Positions 9,229-9,413 of a stretch of DNA of 31,689 nt are shown here, piece after piece. How positions within the stretch are numbered: position 1 is the first letter of the stretch; each line of letters starts with the position of its first letter. Position numbers and translations under genes: made by a program. Source of the DNA: a virus; IMG/VR virus record IMGVR_UViG_3300037502_002416, positions 1 through 31,689 of that record; one strand, given 5' to 3'. Under the pieces are notes generated by a model that saw only the letters and a list, made by a program, of their open reading frames with translations, was not told where the DNA came from and did no database searches.

Positions 9229-9313
9229 AAAAAAACCCCTTAGTGAGGACTTGGGCTTGACAGGCCAGCATCGGGCGCGAACCAAACGATGACTACAAGC
9301 CCTCACTAAGAGG
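9229..9313 (-). terminator. Long-stem intrinsic terminator
   Basis: On the minus strand, bases 9313-9297 pair over 17 positions (three G-T pairs included) with 9252-9236 and are followed by a seven-T run (9235-9229). The loop of about 44 bases is unusually long and can itself pair, both internally and with upstream sequence. Confidence 0.75.
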
Positions 9314-9361
9314 TTCTGGGTACTACACTGTTCGCGCCAATGCCGGAGTGTCAATTCCGAC
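9229..9361 (-). ncRNA. Candidate structured leader RNA / riboregulator
   Basis: Predicted RNA of about 130 nt from the promoter at 9396-9368 to the terminator ending at 9229. It has a 9-bp perfect pairing between GGCGCGAAC (9338-9330) and GUUCGCGCC (9282-9274). The first arm lies before the terminator stem and the second inside the terminator loop, so the two stems interleave as in an H-type pseudoknot or an anti-termination switch. A further GGGCUUG/CAAGCCC pairing can replace the inner part of the terminator stem. No ORF with an SD is present. It could be a free-standing RNA or a leader controlling the helicase/primase operon. Confidence 0.45.
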
Positions 9362-9367
9362 AACCGT

Positions 9368-9413
9368 AGGATAGCAGAACTTGGGAAAAGTTCCAAAGTG
9401 GTAAATTTTACCA
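9368..9413 (-). promoter_or_regulatory. Minus-strand promoter with operator-like dyads
   Basis: TTGGAA (9396-9391), 17 bases and TATCCT (9373-9368) preceded by TGC form an extended -10 promoter. A 15-base palindrome, TGGTAAA-t-TTTACCA (9399-9413), sits just upstream, and an imperfect dyad (9379-9399, one mismatch in nine) covers the -35 box. The layout is that of a repressor- or activator-controlled promoter. A consensus TTGACA also occurs at 9354-9349, but with no good -10. Confidence 0.45.

Follow-up and report, generated by a model that had tools for sequence, protein, structure and literature searches.

Ahead of the helicase/primase operon of a virus catalogued in IMG/VR (record IMGVR_UViG_3300037502_002416) lies a short leader in which two predicted RNA stems interleave. 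Does this arrangement control transcription of the replication genes, and if so, by what means? We analyzed the window, meaning the whole stretch of 31,689 nt, together with 43 relatives obtained by a helicase search in IMG/VR. Coordinates refer to the window unless a relative (L-number) is named.

A leader RNA with interleaved stems

The leader RNA is encoded on the minus strand and is predicted to span 133 nt (9361–9229), from a +1 at G9361 to the end of a U-run; as a unit it is conserved in at least 86–87 distinct IMG/VR elements. It opens with the 5'-terminal hairpin P1 (9342–9361; stem 9361–9356/9347–9342), whose variants covary by eye, with compensated forms such as GUUGG/CCAAC in L119 and CUGG/CCAG in L108. 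The P1 loop UUGACA (9354–9349) and the loop UGUCAA (9262–9257) of the invariant hairpin P5, GGC-CUGUCAA-GCC (9254–9266), are both nearly invariant and form a candidate kissing interaction. Between them lie the two arms of a 9-bp helix: the hypervariable 5' arm GGCGCGAAC (9338–9330) pairs at all nine positions with GTTCGCGCC (9282–9274), which sits inside the loop of hairpin P4 (9269–9291; stem 9291–9287/9273–9269). The P4 stem varies between classes, being CATCG/CGATG in the class of the window and GCAC/GTGC or GCATCT/AGATGC elsewhere. A third small hairpin is also present.

The second long stem pairs 9313–9297 with 9252–9236 over 17 bp, G-U pairs included, and extends to 22 bp (9317–9296/9253–9232), ending in a U7 tract (9235–9229). 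The original prediction had placed the 9-bp and 17-bp pairings at exactly these coordinates, and their interleaving is confirmed: the order a-b-a'-b' makes a true pseudoknot. The folding energy of the region lies 4.1 standard deviations below that of shuffled sequences (z = −4.1), and a descriptor of the topology matched once in the window (9316–9233, minus strand) and never in 30 Markov-shuffled windows. A model in which the top of the terminator stem forms a bulge (GGGCTTG with CAAGCCC) was dropped in favor of P5 plus a continuous stem, because the variants ...CGAGCCTCC and ...CAAGCTCC preserve the continuous stem.

Both stems are maintained by compensating changes

Covariation on related phages had been proposed as one check, and it came out in favor of both stems, which are preserved through compensating changes. 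The 51 distinct elements compared carry 45 different arm sequences, with a mean uninterrupted Watson–Crick stem of 8.35 bp; when arms were swapped between elements, the mean fell to 4.26 bp and never exceeded 4.76 bp in 300 permutations. A well-aligned subset of 20 sequences agrees: four of the nine pseudoknot pairs, all central, changed on both sides, as did five pairs of the terminator stem, with 97.5% of cells paired. The covariation score of this subset was reached by none of 500 shuffles, and sliding the partner arm by one column halved its pairing. Taken by itself, the terminator stem had 99% of its cells paired. The predicted pseudoknot is thus strongly supported.

At least five T in eight follow the stem in all 51 class-1 elements, and the same holds for every class-2 element checked; stem and U-run together occur in every member checked. 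By its anatomy, the stem with its U7 tract would be an intrinsic terminator, and the conservation of both supports the earlier placement of a terminating leader ahead of a replication operon.

Nearly every member retains both interleaved stems at once, so they appear compatible rather than mutually exclusive. The suggestion that they themselves constitute an anti-termination switch was accordingly not borne out, and no antiterminator structure able to compete with the terminator stem was found. The stems contain conserved G-U pairs and exchange G-C for G-U, which indicates RNA rather than a DNA cruciform; the pseudoknot linkers carry insertions and deletions of many sizes, which speaks against a reading frame.

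A recurrent promoter at a nearly fixed distance

Upstream of the leader, a −35 element TTGGAA (9391–9396, supported by family comparison) and an extended −10 element TGC-TATCCT (TGCTATCCT, 9368–9376) on the minus strand are separated by a 17-nt spacer; the TGn motif occurs in 31 of 51 family members. With a score of only 8/12, this promoter had been missed by a generic promoter scan with a threshold of 9. Across the 51 members, the best sigma70-type promoter score averages 8.0/12, compared to 6.2 in shuffled sequences, and in 36 of them the −10 element ends 6 nt ahead of the +1. The distance from promoter to RNA 5' end is nearly fixed although upstream sequences differ wholly between groups. 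This recurrence at near-constant distance makes GUCGGAA the most likely start of the leader RNA.

Two dyads flank or overlap the promoter, as originally described together with the extended −10 element. The operator-like palindrome TGGTAAATTTTACCA upstream of the −35 (9399–9413) has no mismatches (0.06 expected); it is unique in the window and, within the family, is found otherwise only in L068, L091, and L117. The second dyad, GAACTT-GGGAA-AAGTTC (9377–9393), is read directly from the sequence between −35 and −10 and is not conserved. Compared across leader relatives, neither dyad is family-wide. Further upstream of the leader promoter, at 9507–9536 on the minus strand, another terminator-like hairpin with a long T-run probably ends the upstream transcription unit.

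The pseudoknot helix is hypervariable

We compared 45 element pairs with identical P1 and terminator strands, in which the identity of the pseudoknot 5' segment averages 0.76. The segment is only 46% identical in L108/L121, against flanks of 93% upstream and 96% downstream, 71% in L082/L115 (flanks 94% and 100%), and 64% in L002/L099 (flanks 97% and 94%). Two further close pairs retain identical arms. By these comparisons the pseudoknot helix is hypervariable and in some pairs outpaces near-identical flanks, as judged by percent identity in few pairs. Lack of constraint alone would not be expected to make a helix evolve faster than the sequence on either side of it, which points to diversifying selection or cassette exchange as the likely cause of the change in the arms. 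Copies of the pseudoknot arms elsewhere in their own loci do not exceed the number found in permutations.

Occurrence of the leader family

Five of the 43 helicase relatives share a stretch confined to ∼9412–9222, while most of the surroundings have diverged. An invariant 19-mer retrieved 93 IMG/VR stretches, corresponding to 77 distinct elements including the window, and a looser pattern added at least 10 further loci, confirmed by profile search. The total of distinct leaders in IMG/VR is given as a lower bound of 86–87, with L162 and L176 looking identical over the stretch shown. Each locus carries one copy.

The leader is absent from 50,697 GenBank phages by DNA similarity (queried with the class-1 leader of L008), and its pattern has no match in the genomes of 84,980 prokaryote species. 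Rfam at gathering score gave no match anywhere in the window, and the leader was also unmatched in 22 relatives. The family is therefore new to the databases searched and so far confined to IMG/VR, with GenBank phages, prokaryote genomes, and Rfam empty. In type it belongs with the phage attenuator leaders, among which it represents a variant whose hypervariable core is unusual and whose partners are modular.

Unrelated sequences share the topology

The same architecture recurs in leaders of different sequence. In L004, a comparable promoter and a 3' module of type A surround a sequence-unrelated RNA with the same parts, namely P1, a pseudoknot (AATCGGTAG/CTACCGATT), a terminator, and a pairing between 5' end and module (P0, GTCAGCA/TGCTGAC). 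A second class (TTTACACATG...CAGTTGTAA) comprises 37 distinct elements with the same topology and their own covarying arms, which pair over 8.6 bp compared to 5.8 bp when swapped (maximum 6.6 in 200 permutations). Among the 43 helicase-relative loci, 15 contain exactly one same-topology leader each, all on the operon strand and most of them unrelated in sequence, and randomized copies of the 43 loci contain none.

The GenBank phage MW202545.1 (L222) carries a same-topology look-alike at 2261–2488 with arms GTGGAAAACC/GGTTTTCCAC; a hypothetical protein (UOF78434.1) is annotated across this apparent leader RNA. At L043:11880–12000, the loop of the 5' hairpin (P1 GCGGAAGTGAGACTCCGC, resembling P1 of class 1) carries a pseudoknot arm, and this leader may link the classes.

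Modular RNAs and replication genes downstream

A second conserved region usually starts 3–12 nt past the U-run and belongs to one of several sequence types that differ between phages; 5' leaders and 3' modules are found in many combinations. A promoter would scarcely fit into so short a gap; module and operon thus depend on read-through of the leader or on transcripts that start further upstream. The module of the window is a conserved non-coding stretch of ∼325 nt (8895–9218, minus strand; type W) with 80% identity to L136:2863–3182. With only these two members, type W yields no supported structure and its fold energy equals that of shuffles; nor does it match Rfam. RNAalifold produced structures for module types A–C that indicate no function, and the three 3' modules compared by DNA similarity have no match among GenBank phages.

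One module type is the Rfam family RF02932 (Betaproteobacteria-1), which the Rfam scan of relatives detects directly behind this leader or other same-topology leaders at L062:916–1034, L063:4188–4309 (minus strand), L077:266–388, and L107:5760–5882, and behind such leaders in further phage contigs (L003, L013, L018, and L037). The leader itself falls outside RF02932, and the module of the window is of another type. A literature search on RF02932 or Betaproteobacteria-1 returned nothing. In type-D modules such as those of L063, L087, L107, and L173, a direct repeat of variable sequence (AAGGGCAA, AAGGCGAA, and GGACAGG are examples) has one copy in a hairpin loop and one right after a conserved CACCA at the module 3' end, and both copies change together.

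Behind the module of the window follow, all on the minus strand, a small gene at the operon start (8685–8990; its start codon is uncertain and the listed reading frame overlaps the module), a ParB-like gene (7770–8672; phrog_1033), a superfamily 2 helicase gene (6250–7725), and a primase gene (5381–6250). The leader does precede the helicase/primase operon, as had been noted, with the ∼325-nt non-coding region and small genes coming first. In relatives, the genes next to the modules serve replication or recombination. A conserved gene of ∼73 codons (MSKRK...) lies between U-run and module in L055, L065, and L136. Its start codon immediately follows the U-run, and inspection by eye puts its ribosome site in the terminator 3' strand; it is missing in other phages such as that of the window, and its product has no Pfam match. 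In L008 and L028, an unrelated small gene (MPIVYSRK...) lies at most ∼80 nt past the U-run, before a type-A module. Elsewhere in the window, a single open reading frame of 3512 codons (17977–28515, minus strand) takes up a third of the contig.

Alternative pairing of the RNA 5' end

The first seven nucleotides of the RNA can pair locally in P1 or with the first bases of the 3' module, forming P0; in the window, nt 1–6 (9361–9356) pair with TCCGAC (9214–9219, minus strand), a strand that covaries in relatives. A P0 of at least 6 bp, G-U pairs allowed, is found within 45 nt past the U-run in 41 of 51 elements, compared to 25% of shuffles, and the elements' own pairs exceed all 300 permutations. 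Compensated versions include ACTGGAA/TTCCAGT (L108 and L121), ATCGGAA/TTCCGAT (L061), GTTGGAA/TTCCAAC (L095), and, by eye, GTCGGAT/ATCCGAC (L010 and L053). In class-2 leaders, P0 does not rise above permutation.

Since P0 recruits the strand that forms the 5' half of P1, only one of the two can form at a time; no other mutually exclusive pair was found in the leader. Lying partly downstream of the terminator, P0 can exist only in read-through RNA and cannot itself decide termination.

Proposed attenuation and competing explanations

We propose, at a probability of roughly 0.6, that the element is a promoter-proximal RNA attenuator with two products, a short pseudoknotted RNA and a transcript that reads through. 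A host-type sigma70 RNA polymerase would initiate at 9361, and the nascent RNA would fold in the order P1, pseudoknot (5' arm with the P4 loop), and long terminator stem with U7. Most transcription would stop at ∼9229, releasing a compact RNA of ∼133 nt capped by a 5' hairpin, while read-through transcripts would carry the 3' module, the small gene, and the ParB-like, helicase, and primase genes. In the latter, the first 6–7 nt would leave P1 and pair with the module start (P0), giving a refolded 5' end. Comparative sequence analysis provides the RNA unit, its promoter, the pseudoknot, the terminator stem with U-run, P1/P0, the hypervariability, and the position; from these we infer the actual start and stop, the ratio of stopping to read-through, its control, and any action of the short RNA in trans.

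Such an action forms the core of a more tentative reading, which can hold together with attenuation: the terminated RNA, perhaps processed, would use its arms to act on leaders of matching specificity, whether nascent or in read-through transcripts, and shut off replication genes in a related phage that co-infects or superinfects, and arms would diversify to escape cross-control. Arms diverging far faster than their flanks with pairing retained would fit this. So would the predicted early termination of a leader placed before replication genes, a plan described for P4 (PMC4825925), and IsrK shows that in a phage a short terminated RNA can act on the read-through transcript from its own promoter (PMC4825925). 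However, any partner in trans would have to compete with the pairing of the arms in cis; a third complementary site was not found in searches for the arms in their own loci, where they are not repeated above permutation; and cassette recombination or another selective agent could also cause the hypervariability. A tyrosine integrase (PF00589) occurs in only two of 20 leader-bearing records, which may be fragments, and not in the window, leaving lysogenic immunity unsupported for most of them. Extended to the family, this idea would make the leaders a phage RNA identity system, in which interchangeable pseudoknot–terminator cassettes carry a hypervariable helix setting specificity in phage–phage competition (RNA superinfection control) and read through into equally modular large structured RNAs, a speculative possibility that we likewise regard as doubtful.

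Leader and 3' module, joined by P0, could instead make up a single long functional RNA with the leader as its 5' domain; the hairpin and U-run would then serve as a structural or processing site rather than a terminator. P0 covariation spans the U-run, the class-1 elements examined have a conserved module behind the leader, some with a gene in between, and the modules are shared with other 5' leaders. We nevertheless consider this rather unlikely: small genes separate U-run and P0 strand in L055, L065, and L136, 5' and 3' modules combine in many ways, and a terminator better explains why stem and U-run persist in every member checked, and also in several leaders without sequence similarity. 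More improbable is a cis-acting RNA in the manner of HK022 put, as the original prediction had suggested, which would bind RNA polymerase and make it pass the downstream terminators of the replication operon. A phage operon that opens with a structured RNA would suit this, with no protein needed in principle, and putL of HK022 sits just downstream of PL. The 133-nt leader nevertheless departs from the ∼70-nt architecture of two stem-loops in having a pseudoknot and a terminator-like end of stem plus U-run, and variation in it is greatest in the core helix.

A pseudoknot beside a terminator is a common riboswitch layout, and the invariant P5 region may be a binding site; a ligand-responsive riboswitch or protein-binding attenuator, also among the earlier proposals, nonetheless appears very unlikely. 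Rfam is without a match, the downstream genes are for phage replication rather than metabolism, the pseudoknot is hypervariable instead of conserved, and several unrelated sequences occupy the same place; no sign of a ligand aptamer or protein site was found. Least credible of all is that the arrangement arose by chance or works at the level of DNA, for example as an origin cruciform or as coding sequence. The position near replication genes would suit the latter, but the topology is absent from randomized sequence, the covariation contradicts both, the G-U pairs and G-C/G-U exchanges described above indicate RNA, and the linker indels weigh against a reading frame.

Relation to known systems and significance

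The attenuator reading has a counterpart in the leader of the lambda pR' promoter, where a constitutive promoter gives a short leader RNA (6S RNA) that ends at the intrinsic terminator tR' and genes are expressed only by read-through. The late genes of lambda are controlled through Q at a promoter-proximal pause. The order promoter, leader, terminator, and read-through would be the same here; to our knowledge, no pseudoknot occurs in the pR' leader. In satellite phage P4, replication genes are prematurely terminated by RNA pairing with the CI RNA (PMC4825925), and our leader resembles this system in its place ahead of replication genes and its paired RNA segments, termination here being predicted; it would function alike if its arms acted in trans. 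P4, however, uses two complementary leader sites (seqA and seqC) and a processed CI RNA, whereas here the two arms belong to one pseudoknot next to an intrinsic terminator, and a search for the arms in their own loci found one complementary partner only.

IsrK of the Gifsy-1 prophage combines one promoter, a short terminated and a read-through RNA, and alternative pairing of leader and downstream sequence (PMC4825925). Compared by description, P1 and P0 are covarying alternatives of this sort, with both isoforms predicted; IsrK, though, acts on anrP translation in the antQ locus, whereas the read-through RNA here would carry a module and replication genes. The put RNA of HK022 (∼70 nt, two stem-loops, suppressing terminators; PMC9378689) is likewise a phage cis RNA right after a promoter; its action involves binding to the beta' zinc-binding domain.

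Taken at this strength, the leaders add to phage RNAs a modular and widespread class that had not been catalogued, placed where replication could be switched on. A core helix that can change faster than the flanking DNA is the mark of a specificity determinant. The orphan Betaproteobacteria-1 RNA, in turn, gains a context as one of the 3' modules found behind such leaders.
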